NCBI RefSeq assembly: GCF_025602895.1
Contig: NW_026516288.1
Span: forward strand, 62,001 to 126,000
Direction of reading: 5' to 3'
DNA: 64,000 nt
DNA from: Polychytrium aggregatum
Lineage: Eukaryota > Chytridiomycota > Chytridiomycetes > Polychytriales
In this document: piece after piece, positions 426-29,575 of the stretch
Numbering within the stretch: position 1 is the stretch's first letter
Layout: each line of letters opens with the position of its first letter
Translations under genes and position numbers: made by a program
Notes under the pieces: generated by a model
What the model was told of the DNA's origin: nothing
The model's input: only the letters and a program-made list of their open reading frames with translations
The model's database searches: none

Positions 426-3400
426 ATGAAGAACCCGTCTGACACCAGCGCTGATGCCGACCCACAGTGGGACGCGGGCCAGGTCGACCCAGACGACTCC
501 GAGCATGGGTTTCTACTTGCCCTTGACATGAACGGCAGCTCCTCAACCAGTCCGGGCCAAAAGCCTTATCGGCGACACAGGACTAAACCTACTCCGGCCG
601 AACCAGGCTCCTCAAAGTCCTCCAGCGCGTGGTTTTCGTGGAGCAAGCTGGCATTCGCTGCGGCTTTGGTCGCCGTTGCGTCGCTCGTGATCATCACGGC
701 CGTCTCGATGGGCGGCTCATCTCAATCCGAGCGCACCACTGCTCTGCCCGAGAGCCTCGACTTTCTCCAAGCCAACTCCAGCCAAGGCCTGCGCCTGTCG
801 TCCTCCGTCATTCCCCGCCACTATGACCTCGAAGTGACTCCGGACTTGGAGACCCTTGGCTTTCACGGAACGGTCGACATCGCGCTGCTCATTACCGAGC
901 CGACCTATCACATTCGCTTCCATGCCCTCGATCTCAACCTCTCGAACATCTATCTGGCCCAAGGCTCGACCAGGCTCTTGCCCACGCGGGTCGTTGAGGA
1001 TCCACCCACGCAGACGTTCGTGCTGCTCTTTGGGACCATTGTTGGCGTGGGAGACTACCGCCTTTCCATCGACTTTGACGGCGTCATGGGCGATGGCGAG
1101 CCTGCTGGCTTTTATCGCAGCAGCTACATGGACGGCTCTGGCCAGAAACACTACCTCGCCATCACTCACTTTGAGCCCGTGTTTGCCCGAATGGCGTTCC
1201 CGTGCTTCGACGAGCCGGCGCTGAAGGCCAGCTTCAAGATCACAGTGTGCTCCGCCCTGACCGCGCTGTCAAACATGCCGCTCAACAAAACAGAGCCGGT
1301 GGGCGCCTCTGGCATGAGCCGATATGTTTTTCAGAAAACCCCGCCTCAATCCACCTATCTGGCCGCTTGGGGCGTCAGCGACTATTCCCGCGTAGAAGCA
1401 CGGACCTCCAGCGGAATACCAGTCGGCGTCTATGCTCCATCCGAGTCCATAAACCTGACCAGGTATGCGCCGCTCGTCGCATGGTAGATGCCGATCTGAC
1501 CAGGTGTCAAATCCAACAACTCGCACGATTGTCTGGAATGCTTGCGCTGAGTAGTCGCTTGAACATCCGCTTCAAAGGGATCCGTCCCTTACACCAATTA
1601 TCTGCATCTGTCGGCCGTCGTTGCATTTGACATGTCTTCCGCACGCAGCTTTGCCTTGGATGTGGCAACACGGTCGATGGAATTTTTCCAAAAGCTCTAC
1701 AACTACACGCTTCCGGTTCCAAAGATGGACCATTTCCCCGTTCCGGATTTCACCTGTGAGTTTCGCGATCGTTGGCAAGCAGTCCATGGCGATCGATGCT
1801 CACTGCCGCGGCTGGCACAGTCCTGTTTGATATCGGACTGACTGGCCGGCTGGCTCGGTTCTTGGACAACAGCGGAGGGTATGGAGAACTGGGGCTTGAT
1901 AACGTATGAAGACAGCCTGCTACTCATCAACCGCAGCTCGGCTCCCGCCCAAGATCTCCAGGCATCGGCGATGCTGATCGCTCATGAGATTGCTCATCAG
2001 GTCTGGCAGATGCGAGCGGCTCCCACGCAATATCGATTCAAGGACTGTACCGTCTGCATTGTCCTCCATCAATATTGGACAGCCGCATTAGTCCTTGCTG
2101 GCTGACACTGTCGATTCGTCGTTTCACAGTGGTTTGGCGATCTTGTCACGATGGCCTGGTGGGATGATCTGTAAGACCAGTTTCTTCACGCTACGATGCT
2201 TGAGACGGGACCTCTTGGTGCCGAAAAAGAGCGCAGTCTGACGTTCATGTTGTCTATGGCATCTAGGTGGCTCAATGAAGGCTTTGCAGAGTTTATGCAG
2301 TACAAGAGCGTTGCTGCCCTGCACCCGGACTGGGATTTACTGTCTCAGTTCTTCGTCTATGAGCATCTCCTCGCCTTCGAAGCCGACGAATCAATGTTCA
2401 CCCACCCCATATACCTTCCCGTCGCCGACCCTCTTCTGCTTCCCATGCTCTTTGATGATGTGACTTACAACAAAGGCGCATCGGTCATCCGTATGCTCGA
2501 AGACTGGCTCGAGTCCGCTGACGGCGGGCACCTCTCCTGTGGGCAGTTCTGTCGTGGTCTCAGGCAGTACTTGGTACAGTATGCCGAGTCGACTGCCCAA
2601 ACTGCAAACCTGTGGCATGCGCTCGACGCTGTTGGGCCCGAGGCCCACAAAGGAATCGTTAACGACACCATGTCCGGTTGGATCAGCAACCCAGGCTTCC
2701 CTGTTGTTCTTGTATCCGCGCAGAACGGGTTTGTCCGTTTGACTCAGTTCCGCTACACCCTCTGGAAAGACACAAACGCAACCGAAATCTCGAGTTCTTG
2801 GCAAATCCCTGTGAGCTATCGCATCCTTATGGATCCGCACTCATCCCCGACTCATGCAACTCCAGCAAAGACCGTGCTTATGAATGGCCACACAACCATC
2901 ATGACTCCGGCTCCTCGAAACTCGCTCGTTCTGATCAACCGAGACCGTGTCGGGTTCTATCGCGTCATGTTCGACTCTATCGATTACTACAAGCAGCTCT
3001 CGCACTGGCTCAAGAGCAGCCCCTCGCTCTTCTCTCCAGCTGACCGTGCCGGCTTCTTGTCCGATATCTGGGCGCTTGCAACCTCGAATCGACTCGGCCT
3101 CCAGCTGGCTATGGATATTACAACCTTTGTTGCCAAGGACCGTGATCCGACTGTGTGGCGCACCTGCATCTCGGTGTTCAAGCAGATGGACAGACTCGTT
3201 GGTGCCCATCCATTCATCGAGGCATGGAATCAGTACAAGTCTAGCCTCGTGGGACCCGTTGCTGCAGAGATCGGATGGGGCGCGTTTGCTGCGACGAAGA
3301 GCCGCTCCGGATCAAAGCCGATTCCGGCTCACGCACTCTCGCTCCTGCGATCTGCTCTCATTCCGTACGCCATCACCCTGGGTATCCCCAGAGTTGTGTC

Positions 3401-22764: not shown

Positions 22765-25246
22765 ATGGACGACGTCGGGGAGCTGAAGCGAACTATCGAC
22801 TCCCTCAAGAAAGAGCGAGACGACCTTAAGGCCCAGCTCAGACAGGCCACCGTCGAGCTTGCTGTGCTCCGCGGCCAAGTCCAAAGAGCCATTTCCATCC
22901 TTACACCGTCCATCGCGACCCACACCCCAGCTCACGGCACCGCCAGCCAGGGGTCGTCGCGGATCAACGAGCAGCTTCTCTTGAGCCACGACCGATCCTT
23001 CAGCAGCGGCGAAATCGGCCCGGCCTCGCTGCAGCGCACACCTTCCACAGGAAATCAGCCCATTGCCAAGACAGCCAGCATCGAGAGCTTCAGTATGTTC
23101 ACCGAAGTAAGCAAGCCCGTGACCCGACCCCCAAGACGAGCCCTTCGACCGACCCTCACCACGTTGATCCGACGGAGCTCCATCGACACTCCGACCGCCC
23201 CAAGTCTCAGCCGGAGGCTCTCTGACCAAAAAGGTCAAGAATCGATCAAGAAGGTGTCCGACGTCCCTCTGTCCCCCGGCGTAGCCGCCGGCATCTCGGG
23301 CTCACCACAGATGACAGGCTCTGGAGCGGTCCGGCAGCAATCCAGCGGCGAGGTTGTTCCAGGGTCGGCGTCCGAGCTCCTTTCGGCCTTCCCTGCCTTC
23401 AAGGGCTTCCCGCAAACGGTCCTCAACGAACTTGCTGCCAAGGGAAAGCCCCTCTCTGCGGGCTGTGGGGACTTTATCGTCAAATTCGGCACCTTGGCTA
23501 AAGAGATGTACTTTGTGGTCGAGGGCCAGGTAATATTCAGAGCAGCGGCTGACATCTGCGTCGTCATCCTGACATCAGGCATACTCGCATTCGGATCCAG
23601 CATCGACAATTTGCACTAAATCCCAGCCAATTGCACTCCCCAATCAGGTCGGAATCCAGAGTCAGAAGGGAAACAGCATCGGCTCCCTTGGCGAAGACGA
23701 GTTCTTTGGAGAGCTGGGCCTGGTCAACCAGACTCGCACGGCCAACATTGTCGCCAAGACCAACTGCCAGTTGTTAGTGCTGACCCGCGAATCGATCGAC
23801 CAAGTGCTTGCCCCTCACCCCGACCTGAAAAAGCAGGTCGTGGACAAGATCGACGAGAAGCTCTCCTGGCTTAAAAACCAGGAGACCACCAATGCTTTCT
23901 CGAAGGAGTTTGGAGGAGAGTTTCTGGCTGATCTTGCCCGAAAGGATCTCGGCAAAGTAAGCTGTGTGTCGTCAGGCAGCTCACGAGCCTTACAGCGGTG
24001 TTTGCCGTTGGGCAGTACAGAAAAATAGCGACGCTAATGGCAGCATGTTCGGCCAATAGCTCCTGGTCCTGTCCGAAGTGGAGCCGACGTTTATTGAGCA
24101 GCTCGTCATGACGATCGTACCCGAAGTATACGATCCCGGCAAGAACGTCATCAACATTGGCGATGAGTCCGACGCCATATTCTTCCTCCTCAAGGGCTCG
24201 GTCGAGGTTATTGGCCCCCAGGGCGCGGTCCATGCTGTCATGGTCGAAGGAGCATTCTTTGGCGAGGTCGGGCTCTTCCACAACATCAAGCGAACAGCGT
24301 CAATTCGGGCCAAGGAGCAGTGTCTTGTCCTCAAGATGATGAAGTCGAGTCTGGAGCAGGTTCTGACGCTCTATCCGGAGGTCAAGAAGCAGATCGCCCG
24401 TGTGGCAGCCGAGCGCTACAGCCTCCTGAAGGAGCGTGGAGAGACTGGCGAGTCCCGCGAGCAATTCGATGTTGAAATCTCGTTGCAGGCGCTGAAGCAG
24501 GTGCGTTGGTTGCCCGGACAGGCACTTGTTCAGCGACTTTGAAACAGTCCCCACGCGTGGAACTGACCTCGGGCAGCCGATGAAGCACCCGTGTCAGAGT
24601 CTGAAGGAGCGGCGATTTCAATTTCTTTCACTATCTCGATCATCTGAGCTTGCACCAGACGGCTTGATAACGCTTCCCTTTGATTTTCTTGGCGACTCGA
24701 TAACGACACACCGCGGTCCTCTCTCTCAGATCGAAATCTTCCTGCACGTTCAAGACGAAGTTTTGAGCGAGCTCGGAATGTGGATGAACCGACGAAGCTG
24801 GAAGTCTGGAGATTATATCCTCCGATGCGGCGAGCACGGCGATTCGATGCACTTCCTGGCAGCAGGGAACGTCGACGTCCTGTCCGAGGTGAGCAGCAAA
24901 CGCTGTCGCAGAATGATATGGTTCGATGTGATGTGACCTGAATTGCAATGCAACGGAGCCAGCGCTGCTCATGTGCTCATCCCAACCACATTCTACCTAA
25001 ATCCCACAGTTTGGCCAAACCATCGACACCGCTTCGGGCCCCAACGCCTATTTTGGTGAAGTGGCAATTCTGGAGGAAGTTCCCAGGACTGCCTCGGTGC
25101 TGGCAAAGTCGGACTGCTCGACGTACGAGCTGCGAAAGGAGGACGTTCTCAGGATGATATCAAAGTATCCACAGATCGGCGAGTCCATCGCCGAGATAGC
25201 CAAGTCGAGAATGCAGGCGTACTTGATGCGGAGCATTTTGGCGTAA
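22765..25246 (+). CDS. Protein with three cyclic-nucleotide-binding domains
   Basis: Five exons in phase 0 (22765-23529, 23648-23956, 24060-24500, 24730-24888, 25010-25246) give 636 residues. An N-terminal heptad-like segment (ELKRTIDSLKKERDDLKAQL) predicts a coiled coil. A Ser/Pro-rich linker follows, then three CNB domains (about 205-310, 360-480 and 510-630). Each keeps the phosphate-binding cassette with its Arg: FGELGL..RTANI, FGEVGL..KRTASI and FGEVAI..PRTASV. No kinase, channel, GEF or DNA-binding domain is attached. The pseudo-substrate inhibitor site of PKA regulatory subunits (RRxS/A) is not evident, although RRSS occurs in the linker. It probably senses cAMP or cGMP and passes the signal to a partner through the coiled coil; the target is unknown. 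The retained cassettes suggest that all three sites could bind ligand. Confidence 0.85.
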
Positions 25247-25848: not shown

Positions 25849-28420
25849 CTACTTCCATCCGCCGCCGTGGTTGCCGGTTTTGGCCTCGGCACCCTTGCGC
25901 TTGTCGTTGACGCTGCTGGCCAGGCGTTCCCACACAGGAACTCGACGCTCCTTGGCTGGCGGCGTGGGCGGTGCTTGTGGGGCCGGAGAGAGCGGGGGCG
26001 TCGGCTGTTGTGGCTGGCGCTTTGACGCTGCAGCAGCCGGAGCCGGGGTGGGAGTGATGCGCGACACTCGCTTGGGTGGCACCGGCGTGCTGGTGGACGA
26101 GCCAACGGTGGCGGCGGAGGAGACGCTACGGGGTCGAGCGACTGGCACGGCCGGAGCCGGGATTCCAGCTTCGACGGGCTCAGGGCTGGCTCGCAGTGCA
26201 TTGGTGGAAGCTGCTGTCTGCACGACCGAAGCCGACAGAGGCTCTGGTCCCGGTCGGATAGAGGATCGGCGAGAGTTGGGAGCAGAAGCACTCGGGGTCG
26301 GCGACGCAGCAGCTCGGTCGAGCCGTGATATCGAGCGCGCCGAGCGGAGAGTCTTCTCGGGAGGCGTGGGTGGATTCTCTGCAGAAACGGCACTCTGGCG
26401 GCGCGAAGCAGTCGAAATAGTCGAGATCGAGGCCCGCTTGCGAAGCGTGGAGGATGAGGAATACGCAGTACTGGAGCCCCGCGGCGGGGCAGTGTCGGGC
26501 GAGGTAAAGGTCGAGCTGCGGACCCGCGTGGCGCTACTGGAAGGTGCCGTCGTGGTTCTGGAAAGCGAAGACGTCCCGTTGATGGCGGAGCTGCGGGGCG
26601 ATCGTGCCTCGCCCGACGATGAGGTATCCTTGGAGACGGTGCTGGTGCGGACGGCGGGCTTGGCCCCTGCTGCTGTCGAGGACGACATCGACTGGGTCTT
26701 GCGATGGGTTGTATCGCTTCGTTTGAGTGGCGCGGCGGAAGGATCCCGCTTCCTTCGCTCGCTCGCAGGCGCCGAAGGATCGCGGTTGCGACGAGAGTTG
26801 CGCGAGTCGTCCTTATCGGCAACATGGCTCGATCGAGCGGCGGTGCTCCTTTCTTTCTTGGTTCTGTCGGTGCGGGTTCTGTCGGAGACATCGGGGTCGG
26901 ACCCATCTTTTCGATGCCTGGACGACGCAGATGTCTTGGAGTCGTGCTTGCGAGCCTCGGATTTGCTATGGTCGTTGTCGTCGTCATCGTCGTGCTCATG
27001 AGCCTTGCCAACGTCCCGGACGATCTTTGCACTTGCGGGAGTGAGACTCTTTGCCCGGCGCCGACCGACCTCGGTGATGAAGTTGTCTTCGTCCGTGTTG
27101 ATGTCACTGTCGAGGCCGCCAAAGACGGTTTGGATGCCGTCGCCGCTGAGGGAACTGCACTCGACGTATCGCGTAGCCGACATTTTCTTGGCGAGCTCGA
27201 GGCCCTGGATAGTTCAAGCCCAGAGTGAAGCGACTGTACGGTCAGGAGCCGGCCCAGCTGAACTGCCAACGCGAGGTAACGACGGTTGAAGCACGAGGAA
27301 CTCACCATCTCGAAGGTCACAAAGCCAGACTCTGGACTACCGCCACCGGGCGACTCGCGGGCAGCTTTGTCTCGAGCATCCGACTTGAGTCCAACGACCG
27401 CAAAGGGCCGGTTGGGGCAGTAATATCGCACCTCGGGTACGAACTGAAGGAGCACCAGAGCAAAAGACCAAGGGGTTACAACGTGCTATTGGCCAAGACA
27501 AGCACTGGCATGGTATCTGGGGATCTATACTCGAGATCCATGTCCCAGAGATAGACAGCGCGGACAACACTGGCCTCGCAAGCCAGGATATGGCGCGGAA
27601 TCCCATCCAAGAATCCCATCCAAGAATCCCATCCAAGAATCACGTCCAAGAATCCCATCCAAGAATCGCGTCCAAGAGTCGCTTCCAAGAATCATGTCCA
27701 AGAGTCGCTTCCAGCTTTGGCGACTGCTGATCGATGCAGCCCCCAGATTGATTACATGGCCGTCCATGACTTGCCCAGGACTTGGATTGGACTGCCGTCG
27801 CCTCCCCATCTGGCCTTTCTTCATCCCTCTGCCCAAACGGATATCGTGAGTGAGTCGTGCGCTCGTACCTTCTCCTCGACACTCTTGAAAGACGGAATGC
27901 TATCGACGGCGAAGCAAATCAGAAAGCTTGAGGCGCGCTCGTATGCGTAGGGTCGAAGCCGGTCAAAGGCCACGGCACCGGCGGTATCGCAGATCTCCAG
28001 ATCGGGCTGGGAGGGCAGCGAGTAGCTCTCCTCGAGGGTAGCAACGTGCTCCTGTCGAACGGGAAAGAAAAGAAAAAGAAGAAAGAAGCGGTAGCACCAA
28101 AGAGATTTGGCGAGAGCCGGGATGAGATTGATGCGGACAAGACGTCAGGAACGGAGCCGATGAGAGCTGTGTCAGGCCATATTGTCAAATCCAAAGAGCA
28201 GGTGCAGGAAGGGAGAGATTGCCAGGGACAGGACAGGACAGAGCAGGACAGGACAGAGCAGAGCAGTGCGTGTTGGGCTCTTTGGGAACCAAGATCTGCG
28301 GTGACCGACAAAGCCAGAGCCGACTCGTACCTCTTGAAAAGAGCCATTCAAAAGACGGAGGACCATGCATGTTTTGCCGACGCCCTCGTCGCCGACACAG
28401 ACGACTTTTCGCTTCGACAT
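25849..28420 (-). CDS. Atypical Rho-like small GTPase with long Ser/Arg/Pro-rich tail
   Basis: Four exons, 28420-28331, 28051-27869, 27443-27306 and 27204-25849, give 588 residues. Residues 1-167 form a Rho-type G domain: KVVCVGDEGVGKTC (G1), TLEESY (switch I, Thr kept), CDTAGAVAFDRLRPYAY (G3), LICFAVDSIPSFKSVEEK, YYCPNRPF, GLKSD (G4) and ECSSLSGDG (G5). The DRLRP and CP(N/K)RPF blocks place it near Rho/Rac rather than Ras or Rab. The third G1 residue, equal to Ras Gly12, is Glu. The residue equal to Ras Gln61 is Ala. Both changes normally abolish GTP hydrolysis, as in Rnd proteins. About 420 residues of Ser/Thr/Arg/Pro/Ala-rich sequence with a short poly-Asp run follow. The protein ends GGGWK, so there is no CAAX prenylation box. 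It is probably a constitutively GTP-bound scaffold or regulator; the partner is unknown. Confidence 0.85.
27599..27714. repeat. 13-bp minisatellite in GTPase intron 2
   Basis: Nine units of AATCCCATCCAAG and variants (AATCGCGTCCAAG, AGTCGCTTCCAAG) lie wholly inside the intron at 27868-27444. Variation is confined to the middle and first bases of the unit. Confidence 0.9.
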
Positions 28421-28909: not shown

Positions 28910-29004
28910 TACAGGCAATCCAATAAAAAACGGGACACCCAGGTTTTGACCATTGATCGAATATTTTGTTACCCAATGTTATCGCGCGCTGGCCATGACC
29001 ATTC
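28910..29004 (-). repeat. Dispersed ~90-bp element, copy 2 (inverted)
   Basis: Read on the minus strand it begins GAATGGTCATGGCCAGCGCG and ends GGGTGTCCCGTTTTTTATTG then GATTGCCTGTA. It is the closest match to copy 1; the centre (AACAAAATAT, GATCAA) is also shared. A weaker match to only the GGTGTCCCGTTTTTTT block occurs near 29192 on the plus strand. Confidence 0.8.
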
Positions 29005-29575
29005 GCCGGACAGTGTGGAATCGCGGCGTCAATGCGGCGCGCAACATGATCGCAGTATGCAGGTCGATTGTGGAGATCGGAGAGCGACCGGCGATCTTCA
29101 CTCGGAGGCTGCCAAAGTGATCTGTTTTATTTCTTGTGGCTTTGCTTGACGCAAGCACAGCACATACTACATGTTCATGGAAGCGGCTGTGGTGTCCCGT
29201 TTTTTTCTGAATAAAGTGTACAGAGCCACAAGGCGATGAATGCAGTCACGGGATTGTTATATTTGCAATAGGATGTACGGGAATACCAAATATGGGGGGA
29301 TATCAACTCCCGGTCGCCCAAGAACAACAATCTGCGATATGTGACAGCAAGACCGTTGTACTGAGAGGGGGGGAATGTGACGACCCAGGCAGATAATGAT
29401 TGCAAGAGAGGCAGGGGGTGACCGACCACATCGGCGGTAAGCGACTGCAGTTCAGCGACACGCGCAACATGCAGCAGTAACCGCCAGTCAGCAACGATCA
29501 TGGCTCGATGACATGCACGACATGCGACGATGGCAAGCAGTTGGCGACCATGGTAGCGAGTGCCACACAAGGCGC

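Follow-up and report, generated by a model that had tools for sequence, protein, structure and literature searches.

The question raised by this locus is whether a zoosporic fungus holds a Rho protein that keeps GTP without hydrolysing it and acts away from the membrane, as an earlier note on this DNA had proposed. The window, which is the whole stretch of DNA that was analysed, comprises 64,000 nucleotides of the Polychytrium aggregatum contig NW_026516288.1 (contig C404 in the numbering of the assembly, which has 64,678,306 bases in 418 contigs), and we call window Rho the 588-residue protein encoded in it at 28420-25849 on the minus strand. The host fits the description of a zoosporic fungus, with 8 matches to the axonemal PACRG domain and 71 to the chitin synthase domain (best E 3.9e-229; 4 of 14 control genomes, all prokaryotes, also match the latter). 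RhoGAP and RhoGEF domains are present in the genome, so an ordinary Rho cycle exists beside window Rho; a search of the genome for Rho-GDI gave no match, and neither did the control genomes, so that this result is no evidence of absence.

Gene structure and the two haplotypes

The window Rho gene consists of four exons, and its three introns all have GT..AG ends. The features of the gene and of its product are the following:

28331-28420, minus strand: exon 1, residues 1-30, start codon at 28418-28420; the intron at Rac1 position 30, phase 0, is found also in five other Rho genes and in the gene L072
28370-28393, minus strand: G1 (P-loop), GDEGVGKT, residues 10-17, with Glu at the position of Ras Gly12 and with Lys16 and Thr17 kept
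27869-28051, minus strand: exon 2, residues 31-91, with switch I (Thr35 kept, His32, Ala34, Glu37) and a shortened beta2-beta3
27971-27988, minus strand: G3, DTAGAV, residues 52-57, with Ala at the position of Ras Gln61 and, before the motif, Cys at the position of Rac Trp56
27306-27443, minus strand: exon 3, residues 92-137; introns at Rac1 positions 96 and 141, phase 0
27378-27389, minus strand: G4, LKSD, residues 110-113, with Lys and Asp kept; Leu also in the canonical gene L063
25849-27204, minus strand: exon 4, residues 138-588 and stop
27148-27159, minus strand: G5, CSSL, with Ser at the position of Ras Ala146, where the canonical rows mostly have Ala
25852-27105, minus strand: low-complexity tail, residues 171-588, by composition
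25948-26013, minus strand: Pro-rich cluster, residues 535-556, with PxxP motifs resembling SH3 ligands (motif match only, without a control)

The last five residues of the protein are GGGWK. When Rac1 was aligned with splicing to each Rho locus of the genome, the window Rho introns fell at Rac1 positions 30, 96 and 141, all in phase 0, and the same three are common to five other Rho genes (L056, L058, L059, L063 and L065); L041 has those at 96 and 141, L072 those at 30 and 96, the Rac gene L062 only that at 96, and the Cdc42 gene L066 none. This coincidence at three of three positions makes the proposed exon joins very likely, and the gene model of the earlier note, with its 588 residues and GGGWK end, holds. 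Short repeated units (aagaatcccatcc-like) were seen by eye within intron 2 (27600-27715), and at 25001-25246 on the plus strand lies the end of a gene with a cyclic-nucleotide-binding domain (PF00027, E 3.6e-9), convergent with the window Rho gene.

Many of the Ras-family matches in the assembly come in pairs of equal score, and window Rho has a second copy on contig C21, also of 588 residues and with identical G1, G3 and G4 motifs. The coding sequences on C404 and C21 differ at six bases, all in exon 4, three of them silent and three replacing. The replacements (I485T, A501S and N582S) all lie in the tail, one silent difference (at 27112, residue 168) falls at the G-domain boundary, and the two contigs encode the same G-domain protein. 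The copies are 99.4% alike over 4953 bases and diverge at window position 29007, beyond which C21 carries about 3.3 kb of repeated sequence. The copies thus look like two haplotypes and not like a copying error, and the Glu and Ala reported at the Gly12 and Gln61 positions are read on both. A repeat of about 271 bases at 28950-29220 of the window is found at 93-97% identity in 38 other places, of 40 matches scored. On the C21 haplotype the further repeat of about 3.3 kb splits it, about 0.6 kb upstream of the start codon, and the two states look like a solo and a full-length mobile element.

Residues lost and kept in the G domain

We compared window Rho with 11 canonical rows (eight genes of the same genome, Rac1 and two Rho1 chains). 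At the 44 positions that are invariant in these rows, window Rho keeps 29 of the residues, L072 31 and Rnd3 34. In Rac numbering, window Rho has kept Lys16, Thr17, Phe28, Thr35, Asp57, Ala59, Gly60, Arg66, Lys116 and Asp118, and has lost Gly12 (to Glu), Gln61 (to Ala), Pro34 (to Ala), Phe37 (to Glu), Tyr64 (to Phe) and Leu70 (to Tyr). Cys replaces Trp56, where the genome's own Cdc42 has Phe, and position 32 is His, as in the canonical L041. The first G4 position in the canonical rows is C, T or L, and the Leu of LKSD, previously listed as a deviation, is no anomaly because it occurs also in L063, whose motifs are otherwise canonical. A survey of 111 fungal Rho proteins gives T or L in G4 with the wording "instead of K", which leaves the exact position ambiguous (PMC8146680, section 3.2).

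The loss of both hydrolysis positions, as in Rnd, stands, Rnd3 (1m7b) having Ser12 and Ser61. The label GTPase-defective is given to Rnd, RhoBTB and RhoH for their lack of conservation at Gly12, Ala59 and Gln61 (PMC8072805), and by this mark window Rho is changed at two of the three positions, with Ala59 kept, and L072 at all three, with Ser59. Rho proteins without Gly12 are described as constitutively active (PMC13236570). Switch I of window Rho is also altered (P34A, F37E and W56C), so that classical Rho effectors may not bind. We take Trp56, Pro34, Phe37 and Leu70 to be GEF and effector contacts, and given P34A and F37E an "active" state of this protein may not imply the binding of Rho effectors.

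Window Rho could instead be a pseudoGTPase, with no nucleotide bound or with one bound for structural reasons alone, whose fold is a protein-binding module for the tail. Glu12 would adjoin the phosphates, both switches are much altered, with 15 of the 44 canonical-invariant positions changed, Ser stands at the Ras Ala146 position, and in the Rho insert region between G4 and G5, the length of which is about kept, a Gly/Ser/Pro-rich stretch replaces the usual sequence. However, Lys16, Thr17, Phe28, Thr35, Asp57, Gly60, Lys116 and Asp118 are all kept, and we regard this reading as unlikely, if worth keeping in view. We give still less credence to a GTPase that continues to cycle by another route, through fast intrinsic exchange or through a dedicated GAP like RapGAP, the special GAP that supplies the missing group to Rap, which has Thr61. 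Ala59 is kept, the Ala to Ser change at the Ras Ala146 position would fit such a route, and in the same genome L067, which we take to be an Arf-like gene, has Asp at position 12 (GLDGAGKT). Arf proteins are GAP-sensitive, and the Asp12 of L067 means that an acidic residue there, taken alone, is poor evidence for the loss of hydrolysis. In window Rho, however, position 12 is lost along with position 61, the Ala to Ser change occurs also in L063 with otherwise canonical motifs, and Phe28 is kept, whereas it is changed in the fast cyclers RhoU and RhoV (PMC8072805).

The tail and the C-terminus

The tail counts 418 residues (Ser 76, Ala 55, Arg 49, Pro 45 and Thr 40, with 18% Ser, 12% Arg, 11% Pro and 10% Thr) and is basic, with 73 Lys or Arg against 41 Asp or Glu, in agreement with the earlier description of a Ser/Arg/Pro/Thr-rich tail of about 420 residues. 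It contains no Cys, all six cysteines of window Rho being in the G domain and none after residue 153, so that the tail can be neither prenylated nor palmitoylated on cysteine, and the reported lack of a CAAX box is borne out. The canonical Rho genes of the genome have short C-termini and, in eight of eight, a CAAX-like end with Cys four residues from the end; in the survey of fungal Rho proteins a CAAX box is typical and not universal, being present in 99 of 111 (PMC8146680). A hidden CAAX exon close downstream was considered and rejected, since the sole CAAX-like end in the three frames of the same strand, within 3 kb from 27204, is at 24640, beyond the gene.

Motif matches in the tail, made without a control, include 11 overlapping PxxP, three PxxPx[KR], two RRxS sites and a candidate bipartite nuclear signal at residue 275. 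No Pfam domain was found in the tail, the four matches of the protein at E up to 0.1 all lying within residues 3-170, and in the search of the genome for relatives only the C21 allele matches beyond residue 182 (74 candidates scored).

We also asked in which frame the tail is read. Only 2 of 1000 dinucleotide shuffles stay open over the 1251 tail bases, and the tail frame has the best codon-preference total of the six (+0.5 vs -12 to -111), the preference having been derived from 1384 codons in the genome's eight canonical Rho genes; a total of +0.5 does not exceed what base composition alone gives. Of the four 312-base segments, the first scores higher in a plus-strand frame than in the tail frame (8.8 vs -0.3), and that plus-strand frame contains four stops across the whole tail. 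Two other long open frames, of 551 and 480 aa, cross the tail, of which the 551-aa frame, on the same strand as window Rho, has a codon score of -111 and is a shadow frame. A tail in another reading frame was rejected with reservations, as the shuffle test and the best codon total favour the tail frame and one segment is contrary.

Kinship with other Rho genes

Window Rho matches the Pfam Ras family at E 3.1e-28, and in NCBIfam only the general small-GTP domain matched. With phmmer against PDB the first matches are Rac1 (E 2.7e-33), Rac2, TC10 and Cdc42 (best 60 of 757). The genome gave 107 PF00071 matches, with 150 of 163 candidates scored, and 40 loci were examined after apparent allelic copies had been removed by score; at least three weak ones (C190:480159, C124:29921 and C139:46085) were left out. 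Nine other Rho genes were picked from the motif listing and then aligned, which makes ten Rho genes a lower bound, and apart from window Rho and L072 the eight others found all have Gly12, Gln61 and a CAAX-like end. Contig C17 carries L058 (about 43 kb) and L059 (about 34 kb) on the same strand and some 8 kb from each other, an arrangement that suggests local duplication of Rho genes. Searches with residues 1-168 gave 37 pattern matches in GTDB genomes and 7 in IMG/VR contigs, none of them confirmed, as expected for two collections without fungi.

A tree that includes Ras, Rheb and Rab of the same genome sets the 14 Rho rows apart at 95/97, which upholds the description of the protein as Rho-like. 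The rows of the tree are own genes and four PDB sequences, with one genome standing for the fungi and with long branches, and within Rho the one neighbour of window Rho that the tree resolves is L072, with which it forms a clade at 96/99 (92/98, below the starred threshold, with the P-loop, switch I and switch II columns removed). L072 (G000:C13:691000-696500, locus 1510-3389) is a second atypical Rho gene, with GDEQSGKS and DTSGSA. Their pairing shows in shared unusual states and not in plain identity. Window Rho is 41.2% identical to L072 (160 columns), 40.6% to Rac1, 40.0% to the own Cdc42 and 32.9-40.0% to the eight canonical own genes, L072 is nearer to Rho1 8etd (44.2%) than to window Rho, and with the motif columns removed the top identity of window Rho is to Rac1 (38%), not to L072. 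The pair shares 12 states absent from the 11 canonical rows, including Glu12, Cys56 and Phe64, and the same count for window Rho with each of the eight canonical own genes is 2, 0, 0, 0, 1, 5, 0 and 2; two of the 12 states (172 and 175) fall in the border columns of the domain, in which L063 is gapped. L063 itself (G000:C35:575900-579100) is a divergent Rho, canonical at positions 12 and 61, that carries Ser at the Ala146 position and ends in CKMI; it has five unusual states in common with window Rho, more than any other canonical gene.

L072, absent from the earlier note, is a stronger Rnd look-alike than window Rho. It shares with Rnd3 Gln13, Asp26, Ser59, Ser61 and Ala77, none of which is found in the canonical rows or in window Rho, and it carries a long extension that is acidic and rich in serine. 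The 373-aa frame of L072 stops at SLSGA, and another frame of the same DNA ends in GGGCCTIL (a CAAX box, CTIL); a 368-base intron with donor GTAACT, which scored best among 180 candidates, would join the frames, and the putative end GGGCCTIL is plausible.

In AU tests, a clade of the pair with Rac/Cdc42 is not rejected (p 0.353), window Rho alone with Rac/Cdc42 is borderline (p 0.055), and a clade with Rnd3 is absent from the best tree yet not rejected (p 0.314, and 0.183 with the motif columns removed). The likeness to Rnd may thus be convergence, as the earlier note worded it, or common descent. The window Rho gene probably arose by duplication among the own Rho genes, in the Rho1-type group, a label used here for Rho genes other than Rac and Cdc42, of which L056 alone was matched to Rho1 by search (best PDB match 5zvp). 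Since the AU tests leave alternatives, this origin rests on the introns more than on the tree.

A decaying duplicate or a wrong gene model, with drift behind the motif changes and a tail that is not translated in the form given here, would fit the long terminal branch of window Rho (1.33-1.71), the two other long open frames over the tail, its neutral codon preference with one of four segments favouring an antisense frame, and the three replacing and three silent allele differences, compatible with weak constraint on the tail, but we consider it very improbable, as there are two intact alleles without a replaced residue in the G domain, three of three intron positions common to other Rho genes, a codon-preference total and a shuffle test that favour the tail frame, and a sister gene, L072, with the same class of losses.

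Comparison with known atypical GTPases

The nearest systems would be Rnd and RhoH in mechanism and, going by published description, the Big Ras GTPases in fungal architecture. Rnd1/2/3 (RhoE) of animals resemble window Rho in their Rho G domain, in the loss of Gly12 and Gln61 and in the nucleotide-holding residues kept (Rnd3 row). Rnd3 has Ser12, Gln13, Ser59 and Ser61 and keeps Tyr32, Phe37 and Trp56, whereas window Rho has Glu12, Ala61 and an altered switch I. The anchor of Rnd3 is made by prenylation. Window Rho, unlike Rnd, has no anchor and has a 418-residue tail, and L072 is nearer to Rnd in motif (Gln13, Ser59 and Ser61). Rnd3 is bound to the membrane via Cys241, and its C241S mutant is cytosolic (PMC13236570). 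Membership in Rnd was rejected, as window Rho has DTAGA with Glu12 and no anchor Cys, and L072 has DTSGS but Glu12, whereas Rnd3 has DTSGS and Ser12.

RhoH has no long tail. It is a GTPase-deficient Rho of animal blood cells with an output set largely by its amount (PMC13236570), and it differs from window Rho in having a CAAX box, CKIF (PMC8072805). RhoBTB has a Rho G domain with a long C-terminal extension (PMC7600811) and is listed as GTPase-defective (PMC8072805). The window Rho tail contains no BTB or other Pfam domain, and membership in RhoBTB was rejected. The same holds for Miro, which has two GTPase domains with EF hands, a layout not found in window Rho, whose Pfam matches are confined to residues 3-170.

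Big Ras GTPases (BRGs; TBRG-1 of Trichoderma virens and putative relatives) are outsized fungal Ras-like proteins of 3-4 times the usual size (PMC8146680), and window Rho, with 588 residues, is large enough to be counted with them. Putative BRGs of Catenaria, Rozella and Rhizophagus are reported to group with Rho and Ran (PMC8146680, section 3.7). According to that survey, G4 is not found in BRGs and G5 has Trp for Ala, and the Catenaria, Rozella and Laccaria proteins are without G2, G4 and G5; window Rho keeps the Lys and Asp of G4 and has CSSL in G5, and by these marks membership in BRGs was rejected. Trichoderma Rho6 is another atypical Rho of fungi, extended and altered in G1 (PMC8146680, section 3.2), and differs in that its extension is N-terminal, of about 130 aa, and its G1 is without the Lys that window Rho keeps (PMC8146680). 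The claim that no fungal family of this architecture had been described has to be qualified, as BRGs and Trichoderma Rho6 were already described (PMC8146680); window Rho lacks the marks of BRGs and of Rnd. Fungal Rho1 and the canonical own Rho genes are like window Rho in the phase 0 introns at 30, 96 and 141, found in five of them, and differ from it in canonical positions 12 and 61, a CAAX-like end and short C-termini. We classify window Rho as a predicted GTPase-deficient atypical Rho variant, with Ala59 kept.

Proposed mechanism

We lean, with some reserve, towards window Rho being a nucleotide-binding, hydrolysis-defective, cytosolic Rho paralog with a partner-recruiting tail, its state, location and partners being inferred from residues. 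The kept residues (Lys16, Thr17, Phe28, Thr35, Asp57, Gly60, Lys116 and Asp118) would hold the guanine nucleotide and Mg2+, and Gly12 to Glu together with Gln61 to Ala would remove the positions needed by hydrolysis and by arginine-finger GAPs. With the nucleotide contacts kept and the catalytic positions lost, the protein would load GTP after synthesis and stay loaded, and with the GEF and effector contacts and the CAAX anchor gone, it would take no part in the GEF/GAP/GDI/membrane cycle and would be a GTP-bound module, either cytosolic or recruited to the cortex. The tail, basic and rich in Ser and Pro, would be the regulated part, to which SH3 partners and kinases would bind; as with Rnd and RhoH, expression, phosphorylation and turnover would determine the output.

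Implications for Rho evolution in fungi

To our knowledge, the GTPase-deficient Rho proteins on record come from animals, in which it is their amount, and not a GDP/GTP switch, that controls them. A review states that fungi hold only the Rac, Cdc42 and RhoA types (PMC7600811), and among the matches listed in the CC-licensed PMC literature, no paper is devoted to a GTPase-dead or Rnd-like Rho of fungi. A wider proposal, possible although we hold it doubtful, is that zoosporic fungi have a two-member, Rnd-like, hydrolysis-dead Rho subfamily, in which L072 has Gln13-Ser59-Ser61 and perhaps a CAAX box, and window Rho is soluble, anchorless and permanently GTP-loaded, with a 418-residue basic PxxP tail. 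If true, either Rnd-type Rho proteins predate the animal-fungal split or the same end state arose twice. Such a pair in a flagellated fungus would mean that the use of GTPase-deficient Rho is not confined to animals, and its anchorless member would test whether Rho action depends on the membrane. As some chytrids both crawl and make walls, a Rho protein that has left the usual cycle would bear on how animals and fungi diverged in the control of shape.
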